A DNA stretch of 64,000 bases, from contig NC_019702.1 of assembly GCF_000317085.1 (NCBI RefSeq), positions 898,394-962,393 of the forward strand, given 5' to 3'. Origin of the DNA: Synechococcus sp. PCC 7502 (GTDB lineage: Bacteria; Cyanobacteriota; Cyanobacteriia; Pseudanabaenales; Pseudanabaenaceae). Below are positions 27,154 to 36,602 of this stretch, in pieces (position 1 is the first letter of the stretch; the number at the start of each line of letters is the position of its first letter). Both the position numbers and the translations under genes were made by a program. The notes beneath the pieces are model-generated. The model searched no databases, was not told the DNA's origin, and saw nothing but the letters and a program-made list of their open reading frames with translations.

Positions 27154-29406
27154 ATGTATCAATTCCAGATTCGAGCATATACACAGATCGGAGAGGCGAT
27201 CGCTGTAGTTGGTTCCACAGAGGAGTTAGGGAACTGGGATGTGGCAAAAGCTATACCTCTAACTACGTCCAAGGCAGAATATCCCCTTTGGCAAACACCA
27301 CAAAAAATCAGCTTTGCAAAAACAGCTAATATTAACTACAAGTATCTACTGCTTAAGCCAGATGGTAGTGTAATTTGGGAAAACTGGGGTAACAACCGAT
27401 GGCTGCCTGCGGATACCGATCGGGTAACTGTAGTCGATGATGGTGGGTTTGGTTATATTCAGCCCTATCCCTTTGGTTATGAATTAAATCCTGCAAGTGT
27501 AAATTTAAATCACCCCCAAAATCAAACGGGCTTAAAAATCGTAATTATTGGTAGCTCAGTCGCCCAAGGGCATAAGGCATGGTTAATGCAAGGTTGGGCA
27601 GCACTTTTAAGCGATCGCCTAACCAAAGATTATGGACATAAGGTGATCAATGTATCCGAAGCAGGGGCAAATGTAAGTAGAACGATCGCCCGATTTTCCC
27701 AAGTAGTAACGCCCGCATCCCCAGACATCGTGATTACTGCCCTATCCCTTGGCAACGAAGGCTTTGCCACCTGTCCTCCCCAGCAACGACGCACCATTAA
27801 AAGAAAGTTTGAATCGGGATTACAACAACTCATAAAAATGACCCAAGCGATCGGAGCCATGCCTATCCTTGCGGGAATCTATCCCCACGGTGAATATGAG
27901 AGCGAACATCGACAAATGCTCTGGGAAACCCATCGACGGATGTTAAATTGGGGCGTACCTGTTTTAGATTGGCTGGCAGCAATAGAAGACGGGCAAGGAC
28001 GTTGGCAATCTGGCATATCCTTCGATCCCGCCCATCCCAATAGCCTTGGTCATCAGAAAATGTATGCGGCGATCGCTCCTCAAGTTCCCAATATTTTTGC
28101 CATAACCAAAGCTCAAATTCAGGAAACCATCAAACGCTGGCAACAGCAAACTGATATTTATCTGGATCGCAATGGCTTTCGGATATTTATTGAAGATGAG
28201 CAGATCAGAATTATTAATCCTAGTCAGTATGAATATGCGATCGCTCCCTATTGGCAAGAACTCCAAACTGCATTTCAATCCGCATTACAAACTCAAGGGC
28301 AATTAATACTTGGAATTTACCTTGCTGATCCATCTGAAAACTTTCCGACCACACCCTATTTATATATTCAAGAAGATGGCAGCATCGATACCACCGTTAA
28401 AATTCCCGCCCATGCCGATCTAACCTATAGCTCCGCTTTCAATCATTTTACTTCAGCCCCATCCACAACCAAGATTTTATGTCAAGAGGGTGATCTAGGC
28501 ATTTTTAAAATCAGCGATCGCTACCTGTGGATTATTAATGAATCCGAACATCAATATAATATTCAACCGATGTGGCAGCAGGTACGCACAGCATTAATGG
28601 CTCTACCCCAGGGCGTTTACATCGACCGCTTTAATCCCGATACTCCCTTTCGCACCTTAATGATTGGCAAAGATGGGTTGGAAAGTCGAGTTAAGGTTCC
28701 CCCCAAGTCTGCTTTGTTTTTTAGCTATAAATGTGACCTGTCCGATATTAAACGGGTGGCAATTCTTCCCCTAGGCGATCGCTGCGCTGTAAGAATGATG
28801 CTCTATAAAATGGAATATGATGGTCCCGCTTTTCCCTTTGATCTGACCCGTAGCACTAAAATTTCTGATGTTGCTGATGCGATCGCTACAGGATTTGAGG
28901 ATATGTGGAATCCCCAATATCTGCATTATAATCCCGCTCAAAACCGCATTTATCACTCTAAATGGCAGGGTTTATCCTTTGCCCACGAAGTTGAAGCAGA
29001 CGAAGACCCAGTTCGGGATATGACTCCCATTTACAAAAGGATGCAAACTCGTTACGCAGCTAGGTCTAAGCGGTTTTGGTACACCCTCAATCACTGTGAT
29101 CAAGTTCTATTTGTCCGCACTGGTGTATGCGATCGCCCTGGGGTTATAGATTTAGTCGAGAAACTCAAAACCAAGTGCCATATCAATAATCGGGACAAAC
29201 CCTTTCAACTTTTACTACTTTCGCCCCAGTCCAGTCACGAGTTTGCAGGCTTAGATCATGTCTTACATTACAATGTGGAATTTAACCCCGATCAAATGTA
29301 TGACAACCTTGATCATTGGCTGTACTGCACCAAAATCATGCACAACATTTTAGAATCCCTTAATATTTCTAGTAAAAATCTATTCTGGTGTCCACCGTAT
29401 GTTTAG
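27154..29406 (+). CDS. Three-domain protein: CBM20 + SGNH hydrolase + DUF1796
   Basis: 750 aa, no signal peptide. Residues 1-90 are a starch-binding CBM20-type domain (YTQIGEAIAVVGSTEELGNWD, VIWENWGNN). Residues 125-310 are an SGNH/GDSL esterase: IIGSSVAQGH with nucleophile Ser134 or Ser135, SLGNE (block III Asn201), and DPAHPNSLGH with Asp291/His294. Residues about 310-525 contain two related beta-rich repeats (RIFIEDEQIRIINPSQYEY... and GIFKISDRYLWIINESEHQY...), unrecognised. From 525 on is DUF1796, a putative papain-like Cys peptidase domain (LPLGDRCAVRMML, FPFDLTRSTKISD, HYNPAQNRIYHSKWQGLSFAHE). The combination suggests action on a glycan-acyl substrate; function not known. It is the first gene of the glycan block. 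Confidence 0.8.
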   Translation: MYQFQIRAYTQIGEAIAVVGSTEELGNWDVAKAIPLTTSKAEYPLWQTPQKISFAKTANINYKYLLLKPDGSVIWENWGNNRWLPADTDRVTVVDDGGFGYIQPYPFGYELNPASVNLNHPQNQTGLKIVIIGSSVAQGHKAWLMQGWAALLSDRLTKDYGHKVINVSEAGANVSRTIARFSQVVTPASPDIVITALSLGNEGFATCPPQQRRTIKRKFESGLQQLIKMTQAIGAMPILAGIYPHGEYESEHRQMLWETHRRMLNWGVPVLDWLAAIEDGQGRWQSGISFDPAHPNSLGHQKMYAAIAPQVPNIFAITKAQIQETIKRWQQQTDIYLDRNGFRIFIEDEQIRIINPSQYEYAIAPYWQELQTAFQSALQTQGQLILGIYLADPSENFPTTPYLYIQEDGSIDTTVKIPAHADLTYSSAFNHFTSAPSTTKILCQEGDLGIFKISDRYLWIINESEHQYNIQPMWQQVRTALMALPQGVYIDRFNPDTPFRTLMIGKDGLESRVKVPPKSALFFSYKCDLSDIKRVAILPLGDRCAVRMMLYKMEYDGPAFPFDLTRSTKISDVADAIATGFEDMWNPQYLHYNPAQNRIYHSKWQGLSFAHEVEADEDPVRDMTPIYKRMQTRYAARSKRFWYTLNHCDQVLFVRTGVCDRPGVIDLVEKLKTKCHINNRDKPFQLLLLSPQSSHEFAGLDHVLHYNVEFNPDQMYDNLDHWLYCTKIMHNILESLNISSKNLFWCPPYV

Positions 29407-30781: not shown

Positions 30782-32116
30782 ATGTCCAGCAGCCAATCGG
30801 ATTTATTAGAGAAAATTCGCCAACAATTTGATAGTAGTCCCTACCCTCGCATTCCCTTAGATAAATCTCCTAAAGACAATCCTATTGCGTTATATATTCA
30901 TAACTTAGTTACCTCTTTTTATCTAAGAGATCAAAGGGTTATAGATACTAAAGGAAAAGTTATATTAGATGCTGGTTGTGGTTCTGGTTATAGGTCACTC
31001 ATCTTAGCTGAAGCTAACCCCGGGGCAAAGATAGTCGGAGTAGATATATCCTCAGAGTCCGTTAAATTAGCAGAGCAAAGATTAAAACATCATGGTTTTG
31101 ATAATACTGAATTTTACGTTTTATCTTTAGAAGATATATCTAGTTTGGGCTATCAATTTGATTACATTAATTGTGATGAATTATTATATCTTTTCCCCAA
31201 TCCTGTAGAAGCACTGAAAGCAATGCGATCAGTACTGAAATTGGATGGAATCCTTCGTACTAACTTGCACAGTTCCTATCAGCGATCTAATTTTTTTAGG
31301 GCACAAAGCTTATTCTCCATGATGGGTTTACTTGATAGCAATCCAGAAGAAATGGAAATAGAAATTGTGGTAGACACAATGGAGGCTTTAAAAGACGATG
31401 TATTACTTAAAATTCAGACATGGAAGAACTTAAACTATTCCCTTGAGAATAAAGAGGGAATTCTGATGAATCATTTATTCCAAGGGGATAAAGGCTACAC
31501 TATTGCTGATATGTTCTCATTTTTAAGAGCGTCCAACTTAGAGTTTATCAGTATGGTGAACTGGCGAGAATGGGACTTTAGAGATCTATTTAAAGATGCA
31601 AATAATTTACCAGTTGTTTTAGCAATGGGGCTAGAAGATATGAGTATAGAGGCTCGACTTCAACTATACGAAATTTTGAATCCAATTCACAGGCTTTTAG
31701 ATTTTTGGTGCGGACATCCCCAACCCTCATCTAGTTTTATTCCCTTTACTAATTGGACTGATAATGACTGGCATTGCGTTAAGGTCTATCTGCATCCTCA
31801 GCTACTGACCGAGAATTTTAAACAGATTTTGGGTACATGCATCAGGGAATGTAAACCTCTTTATCTAAATCAACTTTTTTCTACTCACAAACAAGTAGTA
31901 ACCCTAGATAGTTCAATTGTTAGCAGCCTATTACCTCTATTAGAAGCACCCCAAACCATCGATTATTTAGTAGTAAGATGGATGCAAATTAGACCCATAG
32001 ATCCTTTGACCTTAGAGGCTACTGAACCCGAAACAGCTTTTAATTTAATAAGAGATATTATTAAATTAATTGAGAATCTTGACTATCTTATCCTAGAACC
32101 TCAGGAGCGCATCTAG
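30782..32116 (+). CDS. SAM-dependent methyltransferase with C-terminal extension
   Basis: 444 aa. Start at ATG 30782 (MSSSQSDLLEKIRQQFDSSPYPRIP), 17 codons behind the longest frame's TTG. Class I Rossmann motif VILDAGCGSGYRSLILAE with acidic VGVDISSESVKLAEQ; then FDYINCDELLYLFPNPVEALKAM. Residues from about 250 are an unrecognised helical domain, which ends with an RDIIKLIENLDYLILEP stretch. Its TAG stop shares the CTAG palindrome with the stop of the neighbouring OGT-type gene on the other strand. Confidence 0.83.
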   Translation: MSSSQSDLLEKIRQQFDSSPYPRIPLDKSPKDNPIALYIHNLVTSFYLRDQRVIDTKGKVILDAGCGSGYRSLILAEANPGAKIVGVDISSESVKLAEQRLKHHGFDNTEFYVLSLEDISSLGYQFDYINCDELLYLFPNPVEALKAMRSVLKLDGILRTNLHSSYQRSNFFRAQSLFSMMGLLDSNPEEMEIEIVVDTMEALKDDVLLKIQTWKNLNYSLENKEGILMNHLFQGDKGYTIADMFSFLRASNLEFISMVNWREWDFRDLFKDANNLPVVLAMGLEDMSIEARLQLYEILNPIHRLLDFWCGHPQPSSSFIPFTNWTDNDWHCVKVYLHPQLLTENFKQILGTCIRECKPLYLNQLFSTHKQVVTLDSSIVSSLLPLLEAPQTIDYLVVRWMQIRPIDPLTLEATEPETAFNLIRDIIKLIENLDYLILEPQERI

Positions 32117-33927
32117 GAATGGCAGTAAATCTTCCACATTTGCTGATACGCATTTTCCATATCTTTAGTAAACTGCTTAGCATCCCAAAGTGGGGAGCTC
32201 TTGCGAGATTCCTTTAGCTTCCAAAATACTTGTTTACGTAGATTCTCATCCCTACCCAGCCTAATTCCCCACTCTACATACTCCTTATCCGTCCAGGCAA
32301 TTCCTTCCGTAATTCCAGCATTCATCATCATCGTGTAGCTATTGCGAGCTGCGAATTGCTGACCTACTTTTGTGACCATCGGGATACACATCCATAATGT
32401 TTCCATAGTTGTAGTTGCACCATTATAGGGATAAGTATCTAGCACCACATCAGCTATATCTAAATTTGCCCGATGTTCGAGTACTCCCTTGGTCATAGGT
32501 AAAAATCTCAGGCGATCTCTATCAAGTCCAACCTCCTCACCAATTTCGTAAAAAAGAGTTTTTAGTGTTTCTTGATTTGCTGTACCTTTTATGATTAAAA
32601 AACTATGGGGAACTGCCTTAATAATTTGCAATTGCAGTTTTATGGTGTCGGGATGTCGTTTATACCCACTCTGGGAAGTAAAATAAACTATGGCACCTTC
32701 GGGAATATCGAGTAGACTGCGGTGAATCGTGGGGAATAATACCTCAAAGCCATCCACAGCTATGTAAGTATTAGGCAGTCGCCAGATTTTCTCGGCATAG
32801 TAATCCTGCGCATGATCTGGTAGCACGTAAGGGTCAGCAATAAAGTAATCAATACTTGGAACCCCTGAAGCATCCATGCCCAACCAAGTAACTTGAATGG
32901 GTGCGGGTTTGAGTGCCATGACTTGACAGCTTAAATCTAAAGTATTGCTATCAAGGTCAACCAATATATCAATGTCGTCATCATTAATTTGTTTGGCGAT
33001 CACCTCGGCTTCAAATCCCATTTGATAAACTTGATCACAGTGGGAAGCTATCTTATCTCTGATCGCATCAATGTCTGGCTTATCTGCCACAAAGTAGCCA
33101 TATATCTTAAACTGTTCACGATCGTGATGCTGAAATATCCACCGCGCCAACCAACCCACAGAATGGCTCCGCAAACAATGGGAAAGATACCCAATTTTTA
33201 AAGGTCTATCCTCTAGGGTTGTTGATTTGGTGTGGACATAACTCTCTAACTCCCTTGTCAGGGTTTCCGCACAAAATTGTGATAGCTGATTTTGGATAGT
33301 ACGATTTTTTAATGGTTCATCTCGAACATAGGATAGAAAAAAAGTCGAACTATATAATCTATTCACTAGAGAGTTAGGCAATATCTTAGAATGAGTTTTT
33401 ACCAAGTTTTGAATAAAATCTATTTGCAAATGCCCAACCTCAAAAATTCTTGTCCAATCATTACCATCTTTAAGTAAGGCATTTTGAATCAGAAAATTAG
33501 CAAAAATTTGATCAGCCAAGTTATCAGATAGCTGACTATAGACTTCAGCCGTAGCAATACATTCACTATGTTTAGAATCAAACAGCAAAAATCGAGATAA
33601 ATCTCTCAATAAATCTAAACTTTCTGGCTCTAAATCCACTGCCACCCGAAGTATATCCGTAGCAATATCTAGCCTATTCAGCCTCAGTCCAAACTCCCTA
33701 GCCACATTACCCAAAAATCCTGTTAGCTCCTTGGTACTGGGATAACTCTCATCAATGGTTAGCCACCAGGTCATCTGCGCCTCATCAGGCTCACCTTGAA
33801 GTAAATAGCATAAACCTAGATACCAGTATGAGATTTTAGTTTCAGGCTCTAAATCTATAACTTCTTGAAATAATTCTGCTGCGTCTGCAAATTTATTGAT
33901 ATAAAAAAGATCAACCGCCTTATCCAT
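32113..33927 (-). CDS. TPR + SPINDLY/OGT-type O-linked glycosyltransferase, copy 2
   Basis: 604 aa from ATG 33927, which overlaps the stop of the upstream copy by 8 bp (the ATGGATAA arrangement); an upstream TTG within that gene is rejected. Residues 1-240 are TPR-like (MDKAVDLFYINKFADAAELFQEVIDLEPE..). From 243 the GT41 domain starts: LKIGYLSHCLRSHSVGWLAR, followed by PAPIQVTWLGMDASGVPSIDYFI, IADVVLDTYPYNGATTTMETLWM and RNSYTMMMNAGITEGIAW. GT41 enzymes in plants and bacteria are GlcNAc- or fucose-transferases acting on Ser/Thr; the present substrate is unknown. Similar to the upstream gene over the whole GT domain. Confidence 0.87.
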   Translation of the reverse strand: MDKAVDLFYINKFADAAELFQEVIDLEPETKISYWYLGLCYLLQGEPDEAQMTWWLTIDESYPSTKELTGFLGNVAREFGLRLNRLDIATDILRVAVDLEPESLDLLRDLSRFLLFDSKHSECIATAEVYSQLSDNLADQIFANFLIQNALLKDGNDWTRIFEVGHLQIDFIQNLVKTHSKILPNSLVNRLYSSTFFLSYVRDEPLKNRTIQNQLSQFCAETLTRELESYVHTKSTTLEDRPLKIGYLSHCLRSHSVGWLARWIFQHHDREQFKIYGYFVADKPDIDAIRDKIASHCDQVYQMGFEAEVIAKQINDDDIDILVDLDSNTLDLSCQVMALKPAPIQVTWLGMDASGVPSIDYFIADPYVLPDHAQDYYAEKIWRLPNTYIAVDGFEVLFPTIHRSLLDIPEGAIVYFTSQSGYKRHPDTIKLQLQIIKAVPHSFLIIKGTANQETLKTLFYEIGEEVGLDRDRLRFLPMTKGVLEHRANLDIADVVLDTYPYNGATTTMETLWMCIPMVTKVGQQFAARNSYTMMMNAGITEGIAWTDKEYVEWGIRLGRDENLRKQVFWKLKESRKSSPLWDAKQFTKDMENAYQQMWKIYCHS

Positions 33928-36124
33928 TATGAATTTCCCACATTTCCTTAAGTGCTGTTTCAAATTCCCTAGTAAACTGTCTTGCATTCCATAGAGGTGA
34001 AGTTTTACGAGACTGCTTGAGTTTCCAAGCTACATCACGGCGCAAATCTTCCTCTAAGCCAAACCTTACTCCCCACGCTACATATTCTTCAGGAGTCCAA
34101 GCAATCCCTTCTGAAATTCCCGCATTCATCATCATAGTATAACTATTCCTTGCCGCAAACTGCTCTCCCACCCTAGTCACGAGGGGGATACCTGACCACA
34201 GTACCTCCATAGTTGTAGTTGCGCCATTGTAGGGATAAGTATCTAGTACCACATCAGCAATGGGCAGATTACCTCTATGTTCGTTTTCCTCCCTCGAATA
34301 TGGTAAAAATCTCAACTGGTCACGGTTTACACCCTCTAATTCAGCCATTTCATAGAAGAAATCTTTAATAGAATTTTGATCTGATAATCCCTTTATTAAA
34401 AAGTAGCTGTTGGGAACCTGCTTCAAGATTTGCATTTGCAAGCGCACAGTTTCGGGATGCCGCTTATCACTTTTTTGGGAACTAAAATAAATAATCCCAT
34501 TAGCGGGAACTTCTAACTGTTCTCGCGTTAGGGTGGGGGAGCTGGCTTCAAAGCCATCCACGGCTAAATAACAATGGGGCAATCTCCAGATTTTTTCAGT
34601 GTAATACTCTTGAGCATTATCTGGTAAAACAAATGAGTCGGCAATGTAGTAATCAATTGCTGGTATGCCCGAAGCATCCCAACCCAACCAAGTTACCTGA
34701 ATTGGAGCAGGCTTCAATGCCACTAACATGGTACATAAACCTGATGTAGTACTTTCTAGGTCGATCAAAATGTCGATCTCATCGCGATTGATTTCTTCCG
34801 CAACCCGAAAATGATTGCCCCAATACTCAACATGATTTCTAAATACTTTGTGCATCATGCCCACATACCATTCCTGTAAAAAGTCTCTACCTTCGTAGTA
34901 TTCAGGGAAATAGCCATAGATCTCAAACTGCTCCCGATCTAAATACTGAATCAAATACCTTGCCAGCCATCCTACCGAGTGCAGGCGTAGAGTTGTAGAT
35001 AGAAAACCAATTTTAAGTTTGCGGTGACCAATTATTGAGTTTTTAGCCAAACGCCGTTCTAGTTGCCTTGCTTGAAACAATTGGGTAAGTTCTGATTTAA
35101 GTACCTGTATGTTAGCCTGAAATAGCTGAGAAATCTGGTTTTGCCAAGATCGAGTAGGGCGGGGAGTATCACTAAAGTAAGGAGCAAAAAAGGCTGAAAG
35201 CATAATAAAGGATAATGGTACTTCGGGGATATCTCTAGAAGCTTCTTTAATAACCTTAGCAATTAACTTTTTATGATCTTCAAATACTCGTTCTGCATCC
35301 TGCCACTTACCACCAGATCTTAGAAGCGCACCCAGTAATAAATGGTTGGCAACAACATGATTATTTAAGCTTGCTTGATTTTTTACCAGAAATTCCTTTG
35401 CCTCCCGAATAGCCATTTGATGAGAGTTAATTTTTAATAAGATTTCAACCCGAGTGGTAAATATACCCAAAATTTCGAGACAGCCCGTTTGGAGTATATC
35501 TAGTAGTGTTAATGCCAAATCCTGACGAAATCGGTTTATATAACCGATAATTACATTAACAAACGCTTCTTTTTCCCGAATCTGTGGAAAAGACCAACTA
35601 ATAAATTCAAATTTTAAATCTTCAGCTAAAACTGAGCATAGAATATTTTGATATAACTGCAATAATAAATTCTTGGCTGTAGGATCGGAGTTAATCCTGT
35701 CCATACTGCCTTCAATAACAGATTCTAGGTTTAACTCTGCATAGGTTTCGGTACTTACCAGCCTCAGGGGTAGGTACAAATAAAATGACTGTACGACATT
35801 ATTAAGATCTTCGGGAAAAAGTTGACGGAAAGCTTTACGAATATTTAAAGCGACTTGATATTCCTTGATTTGCTCTTGGCGATCAGCTTCATCATTAAGG
35901 ATTGTTTGTAAATCTTTGGTAAATTGTACGGGATCGGATGCTTCTTTTAATCCACAAGCCCATGTATCCAGTGCATGTTCTTGCTGCTCGAGAAATATAT
36001 ACGCTAACCCTAGATATTGATAGTTGTTGGATAAACCCAAATCATCTTCTAGAAATCGTTCAAGGCGATTAACAAGTTCGGCGTAGTCATTATCAGACTC
36101 TGTAATTAAATCTTCCCAAGTCAT
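33920..36124 (-). CDS. TPR + SPINDLY/OGT-type O-linked glycosyltransferase, copy 1
   Basis: 734 aa from ATG 36124 (MTWEDLITESDNDYAELV); the frame's TTG at 36172 is rejected. Residues 1-365 are TPR-like helical repeats; at about 370 begins LKIGFLSTTLRLHSVGWLARYL, then APIQVTWLGWDASGIPAIDYYIADSFVLPDNAQEYY (quoted in part), FSSQKSDKRHPETV, IADVVLDTYPYNGATTTMEVLWSGIPLV and RNSYTMMMNAGISEGIAW. Followed by its paralogue with 8-bp overlap. The pilin genes lie upstream, after a 500-bp gap. Confidence 0.87.
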   Translation of the reverse strand: MTWEDLITESDNDYAELVNRLERFLEDDLGLSNNYQYLGLAYIFLEQQEHALDTWACGLKEASDPVQFTKDLQTILNDEADRQEQIKEYQVALNIRKAFRQLFPEDLNNVVQSFYLYLPLRLVSTETYAELNLESVIEGSMDRINSDPTAKNLLLQLYQNILCSVLAEDLKFEFISWSFPQIREKEAFVNVIIGYINRFRQDLALTLLDILQTGCLEILGIFTTRVEILLKINSHQMAIREAKEFLVKNQASLNNHVVANHLLLGALLRSGGKWQDAERVFEDHKKLIAKVIKEASRDIPEVPLSFIMLSAFFAPYFSDTPRPTRSWQNQISQLFQANIQVLKSELTQLFQARQLERRLAKNSIIGHRKLKIGFLSTTLRLHSVGWLARYLIQYLDREQFEIYGYFPEYYEGRDFLQEWYVGMMHKVFRNHVEYWGNHFRVAEEINRDEIDILIDLESTTSGLCTMLVALKPAPIQVTWLGWDASGIPAIDYYIADSFVLPDNAQEYYTEKIWRLPHCYLAVDGFEASSPTLTREQLEVPANGIIYFSSQKSDKRHPETVRLQMQILKQVPNSYFLIKGLSDQNSIKDFFYEMAELEGVNRDQLRFLPYSREENEHRGNLPIADVVLDTYPYNGATTTMEVLWSGIPLVTRVGEQFAARNSYTMMMNAGISEGIAWTPEEYVAWGVRFGLEEDLRRDVAWKLKQSRKTSPLWNARQFTREFETALKEMWEIHNG

Positions 36125-36602
36125 GATTAGCTCAGTGTGTGAGGGTAGGTTACTAATAATACCAGACTTCAAAATTTAGCTTTGTAGCCCCAGATATTAA
36201 TTGATATCCTCTCCCGATTTATTGGGGATTCCTAAGATTCAGAATGCCTACAAAGTTTAAGACTAGACAACTAAGGATTAATCTTGGCGAAATTACGACC
36301 ATACTAATCATACTTATATTCAAGCTGTCTGACCAATTTCGACAAACTAGCATCACTTATGTCAAAAGCAAGTTTGTGATCTTTAACCATATTCTTCATA
36401 GACAAGTTTTTGATCGCAATCGTTTGGTTTTTATGTGTCAATCGAATACAAATAGTCAGCCTGTGGAGAACATCATTACGATCATCGCTAATTTCTGCTT
36501 GTTCTACATTATTGTATGAAGTATTGACGGCAATTCATCTCACTGATTTATCGGTAGTCCTCTTCCAGAAAAAATAAACTGAAAATTACGGTTTCAAAAA
36601 TA
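36125..36602. other. Gap with no convincing gene
   Basis: About 480 bp between the OGT-type gene start and the pilin terminator. A frame of 91 codons at 36244-36519 (+) exists, hydrophobic and without a ribosome site or recognisable motif; I do not accept it as a gene. The left part must hold the promoter of the OGT pair. Confidence 0.5.

Follow-up and report, generated by a model that had tools for sequence, protein, structure and literature searches.

The window, a stretch of 64,000 nucleotides from Synechococcus sp. PCC 7502, contains on its forward strand (27154..29406) a gene for a 750-aa protein in which a CBM20 starch-binding domain, an SGNH hydrolase-fold domain, two beta repeats and a DUF1796 domain follow one another in this order. 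The protein is tentatively read as a cytoplasmic acyl-ester enzyme tethered to alpha-glucan, most likely an acyl-CoA-dependent acyltransferase analogous to the mycobacterial OctT, and there is very probably a functional link between genes of this type and a gene for an AMP-forming acyl-CoA synthetase (ACS). The single domains are known; their CBM20-SGNH-DUF1796 combination and its link with ACS appear undescribed.

Domain architecture

The reading frame is intact, starts with ATG and is given here with its stop codon included. The three domains had been proposed by a sequence-only reading and were confirmed by Pfam, each above its curated cut-off, whereas the sole match of the 750-aa protein in NCBIfam was a weak one to TesA. 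The full-length colinear orthologues described below rule out a mis-joined frame. In its own genome (3.58 Mb, 3 contigs) the gene is single of its kind and contains both the sole CBM20 and the sole DUF1796. The AlphaFold2 model of the whole protein had a pLDDT of 78.7 and that of residues 331-750 one of 88.1. Residue conservation was counted in 77 full-length sequences. Met1 is identical in 77/77 and opens directly into the first strand of CBM20. A signal peptide is therefore not plausible, in agreement with the earlier reading, and the protein is likely cytoplasmic.

The CBM20 domain comprises residues 1-101 (27154..27456, forward strand) and was identified by Pfam CBM_20 at residues 3-88 (E 2e-23, 82.3 bits against a cut-off of 23.3). 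When the model was compared with solved structures, its fold match was 2z0b (Z 13.6, rmsd 2.2 over 98 residues). Starch-binding site 1, which we take to be formed by Trp, Lys, Trp, Glu and Asn, corresponds by alignment to the glucoamylase starch-binding domain 1ac0 to Trp28, Lys63, Trp75, Glu76 and Asn81. Trp28, Trp75 and Glu76 are each present in 77/77 sequences, Lys63 in 74/77 and Asn81 in 75/77; Trp46 of this region is also invariant (77/77). Ten other cyanobacterial CBM20 domains (L187-L196) are all C-terminal in GH13 amylase-like proteins of ~620-690 aa, the opposite order to that of the window gene.

The SGNH/GDSL domain comprises residues 126-318 (27529..28107, forward strand), with Pfam Lipase_GDSL_2 at residues 132-301 (E 6e-17, 63.1 bits against a cut-off of 32.9). 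The SGNH set had been described as intact, and it held: Ser134, Gly171, Asn201, Asp291 and His294 are each identical in 77/77 orthologues, including the Ser and His singled out for checking. By fold, the domain matches carbohydrate esterases and TesA (Z 14-16.6 over 165-186 residues); among the former, acetyl-xylan esterases rank first with Z 16.6, and TesA follows at Z 14-15. In sequence the closest relative is TesA, both in NCBIfam (E 1.6e-6) and in PDB (E 3.9e-6), with a score of 28 bits against the 270 bits required by the TesA equivalog NF007819.

The two beta-rich repeats, seen earlier as joints between the domains, are real and mutually homologous by profile-profile comparison (probability 97.5%, E 8e-12). 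Repeat 1 comprises residues 331-427 (28144..28434) and lies outside Pfam families; repeat 2 is a beta-sandwich of residues 428-527 (28435..28734), both on the forward strand. Fold comparison pairs repeat 2 with domain C of GH13 alpha-amylases and CGTases (Z 7-9.1, rmsd 1.9-3.4, ~80-90 residues), and the 50 matches listed are all GH13-family enzymes. This likeness to domain C is a fold-level lead from a model, as Z values of such size can mean a mere common arrangement. Searches of the repeats against Pfam at E 10 and by profile against PDB gave chance-like matches only. Comparison with domain C profiles of GlgB, amylases and GH13-CBM20 amylases was no better than with shuffles, with the exception of a weak colinear alignment to one amylase pair (4.8% against a shuffle maximum of 3%).

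The DUF1796 domain comprises residues 531-750 (28744..29403, forward strand), with Pfam PF08795 at residues 537-688 (E 1e-9, 38.6 bits against a cut-off of 23). This is the most conserved region of the protein, with 35% invariant columns, the linker and repeat 1 being the least conserved. Cys544, whose conservation was to be checked, is present in 77/77 sequences, as are Asp563 (in Pro-Phe-Asp563), His601 and His611; Cys544, Asp563 and His611 are common to stand-alone DUF1796 members, as read by eye. The nearest fold matches are giant-virus models annotated as 'papain-like cysteine peptidase' (E 1e-6), and one further giant-virus match is annotated as a glycosyltransferase. The earlier description of the domain as Cys-peptidase-like follows Pfam's guess. 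The giant-virus matches carry this annotation; no papain-like entry was among the listed PDB fold matches of the larger models within which the domain was queried, an absence of little weight for the domain by itself. A literature search for DUF1796 and PF08795, with subscription journals largely outside its coverage, found no paper. In two small-genome members of the phylum (L121 and L122) the domain is fused, as judged by eye, to glycosyltransferase-like sequence, N-terminal in the former and C-terminal in the latter.

Distribution and history

Of 386 genomes sampled across the phylum, 27 (~7%) gave a match to the gene, in 24 of them a single full-length colinear one. Exceptions are G143, with the gene as two adjacent frames; G151, with two matches within a single 741-aa frame and a diverged linker; and G167, with only an 85-aa C-terminal remnant (G167:C3:6269096-6269299, L027). 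The orthologues are 50-63% identical to the window protein and span nine families; the same domain order does occur elsewhere among cyanobacteria. A scan of the genomes of 84,980 species by peptide patterns, which may miss distant relatives elsewhere, identified 63 loci, all cyanobacterial by title and mainly from Nostoc-type organisms, Calothrix, Dolichospermum, Microcoleus, Tychonema and Oculatellaceae. The architecture had been called unusual, and this was supported; no paper on the CBM20-SGNH-DUF1796 order was found in the literature searched, and a search for CBM20 with GDSL in cyanobacteria, with the same limited coverage of subscription journals, returned nothing relevant.

A stretch of ten A marks the junction of the two frames of G143 (L106, 9255-9420), so that true fission is no more probable than slippage or an error in the homopolymer; natural fission was set aside as evidence. 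Near-identical copies of the locus on two contigs of a Nostoc assembly (WHI; L034 and L035) are probably assembly redundancy.

In the gene tree the window gene is placed with Nostocales and Microcoleus genes and not with genus g2, a member of the same family as the window genome; the group enclosing it has a support of 99/98. The ACS of the same genome is placed likewise in the ACS tree, with weaker support. Lateral transfer of both genes is possible from these trees, in which the window gene has long branches.

Association with an acyl-CoA synthetase

One recurrent neighbour of the orthologues, the AMP-forming ACS, was identified in 46 of the loci retrieved. Its closest solved structures are malonyl-CoA synthetases (MatB/ACSF3-like), and it misses the NCBIfam cut-off for malonyl-CoA synthase (NF005702) with 391.9 against 558 bits. 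Orthologues of ACS, defined by E below 1e-150, are at least 64% identical to the query, the next paralogues reaching at most 40%. Among 373 genomes of the phylum, 17 have such an orthologue, and each of the 17 also carries the window-type gene. Seven carriers of an intact gene lack an ACS orthologue (G193, G282, G346, G177, G332, G286 and G131). Groups that mix genomes holding both genes with genomes holding neither include g8, g15, f6 and f13. Counted by genus, the co-occurrence in the phylum sample has p ~1e-14, a value that ignores kinship.

In 145 genomes of Nostocaceae, 27 hold gene and ACS; an intact gene without ACS was identified in G483 alone, and ACS without the gene in G414 and G442, both assemblies of hundreds of contigs or more. 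G167 contains the remnant only and no ACS, which suggests joint loss; all the others have neither. The Fisher test gives p 7e-26, which also ignores kinship and is inflated by shared ancestry. By coordinates, gene and ACS lie within 3 kb of each other in 20 of the 27 Nostocaceae holding both. Three arrangements are found when G143 is counted: most pairs are convergent, a tandem with the gene followed by ACS is present in G427 (33 bp gap) and G398 (163 bp gap), and in G143, from another family, ACS is directly upstream of the gene on the same strand. In the window genome ACS shares 73% identity with the query and lies ~1.8 Mb from the gene. Protein distances of gene and ACS correlate (r 0.94 over 48 pairs), as shared species history would also produce. 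No other conserved neighbour was found around ACS in ten genomes.

The window itself holds glycogen phosphorylase, GT4 and TPR-glycosyltransferase-like genes, named by eye and partly by NCBIfam search. The sequence-only reading had placed the gene near other sugar enzymes; these are present, but none of the window neighbours recurs near up to 91 other loci, the first 28 with flanks of ~1.5 kb only. The proximity of glycogen phosphorylase is therefore no evidence, and a genome-context reading based on glycogen phosphorylase, a DUF362-like gene and GT4 was rejected. At 32113-36172 on the reverse strand, two adjoining large frames have, by eye, TPR-like N-termini and similar glycosyltransferase-like C-termini; they overlap slightly and are apparently a tandem duplication.

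Proposed function and alternatives

Acyl-ester chemistry directed at alpha-glucan is the probable, still putative, activity of the protein. Given such chemistry and the link with ACS, transfer is slightly favoured over hydrolysis, because the gene and ACS together would suffice for acylation. In the proposed mechanism ACS would turn a free carboxylic acid into acyl-CoA; CBM20, perhaps along with the domain C-like repeats, would hold glycogen or maltodextrin; and Ser134 of the SGNH domain would take the acyl group and hand it to a glucan hydroxyl. DUF1796, through Cys544 and His611, would be a second likely catalytic site, possibly for the reverse (deacylating) step or for another glycan-modifying step. 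This scheme agrees with the earlier suggestion that the protein processes an acylated glycan or polymer in the cytoplasm, and the conserved CBM20 site 1, the fold of repeat 2 and the co-inheritance of ACS make that suggestion more specific.

Against acyl transfer, hydrolysis is the commoner activity of SGNH domains, and carbohydrate esterases rank first among the fold matches of this one. A close rival, possible in our estimate, is an alpha-glucan deacylase, in which CBM20 would dock on glycogen, the SGNH domain would hydrolyse acyl esters and ACS would recapture the acid, perhaps malonate. The esterase matches at Z 16.6 speak for it, a salvage role suits MatB/ACSF3-type enzymes, and a carbohydrate-binding module joined to an SGNH esterase counts in its favour because this plan is common among carbohydrate-active enzymes. 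However, deacylation would require an acyl-adding enzyme that should be co-inherited too, and no conserved neighbour besides ACS was found. The preferred transfer reading also has to face the seven intact-gene carriers without it, the two Nostocaceae with ACS alone and the distance between the two genes in the window genome.

The sequence kinship with TesA would fit an acyl-CoA thioesterase or lysophospholipase localised to glycogen, with CBM20 merely positioning the enzyme; this is unlikely, as the matches are weak and far under the TesA cut-off, carbohydrate esterases rank slightly higher by fold, and DUF1796 and the repeats are left unexplained. About equally unlikely is that DUF1796 is the main Cys enzyme, modifying glycan or protein, and that the CBM20-SGNH half is accessory: the high conservation of DUF1796, the glycosyltransferase-like fusions of L121 and L122 and the giant-virus match annotated as glycosyltransferase agree with it, but the SGNH catalytic residues are equally invariant and so the CBM20-SGNH half is also under catalytic constraint. 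The patchy distribution might be expected of a chance or inert fusion without dedicated function, a reading already disfavoured by conservation and highly improbable with invariant active sites and at least half of the residues identical across nine families.

Cyanobacteria store carbon mainly as glycogen, and the literature searched contained no account of its acylation. A conserved glucan-binding acyl-ester enzyme co-inherited with ACS would be a pointer to acylation of this kind, and would give a functional handle on DUF1796.

Comparison with known systems

The closest CBM20 fold match, 2z0b, is human GPCPD1, an intracellular protein that likewise bears CBM20 on a non-amylase; unlike in the window protein, its catalytic domain is a glycerophosphodiesterase. 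The SGNH carbohydrate esterases, such as PbeAcXE (7toh) and Axe2, and TesA share the fold and the catalytic residues of the SGNH domain, but act on xylan esters or acyl-CoA and do not contain CBM20 plus DUF1796. Other DUF1796 (PF08795) proteins, those of phylum family f31 as well as the giant-virus ones matched by fold, share the motifs G-x-x-C, P-F-D and H-D/E; they are mostly of ~250 aa, stand-alone or joined to glycosyltransferase-like sequence, and are without CBM20 or SGNH. The MatB/ACSF3-type malonyl-CoA synthetases are the closest solved relatives of ACS, yet ACS is below their curated cut-off.

The nearest precedent for the preferred acyl transfer is OctT (Rv2418c), an SGNH-annotated cytosolic sugar octanoyltransferase of the mycobacterial methylglucose lipopolysaccharide pathway, which moves octanoyl from CoA to glucosyl acceptors; its description also made clear that SGNH annotation does not tell hydrolases from transferases (PMC4555173). 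The likeness is a mechanistic analogy: both would be SGNH-annotated, cytosolic and acyl-CoA-using, with alpha-glucosidic acceptors, in OctT en route to an intracellular alpha-glucan. The acceptor of OctT is (di)glucosylglycerate, CBM20, repeats and DUF1796 are not described for it, and it is reported only in Actinobacteria (PMC4555173), whereas the window family is cyanobacterial. It is conceivable, and we put it forward as a speculation, that ACS and the window protein form a two-gene system that acylates intracellular alpha-glucan in some cyanobacteria, perhaps reversibly, tuning glycogen turnover or solubility; if true, this would be the cyanobacterial counterpart of the mycobacterial acylated polysaccharides.
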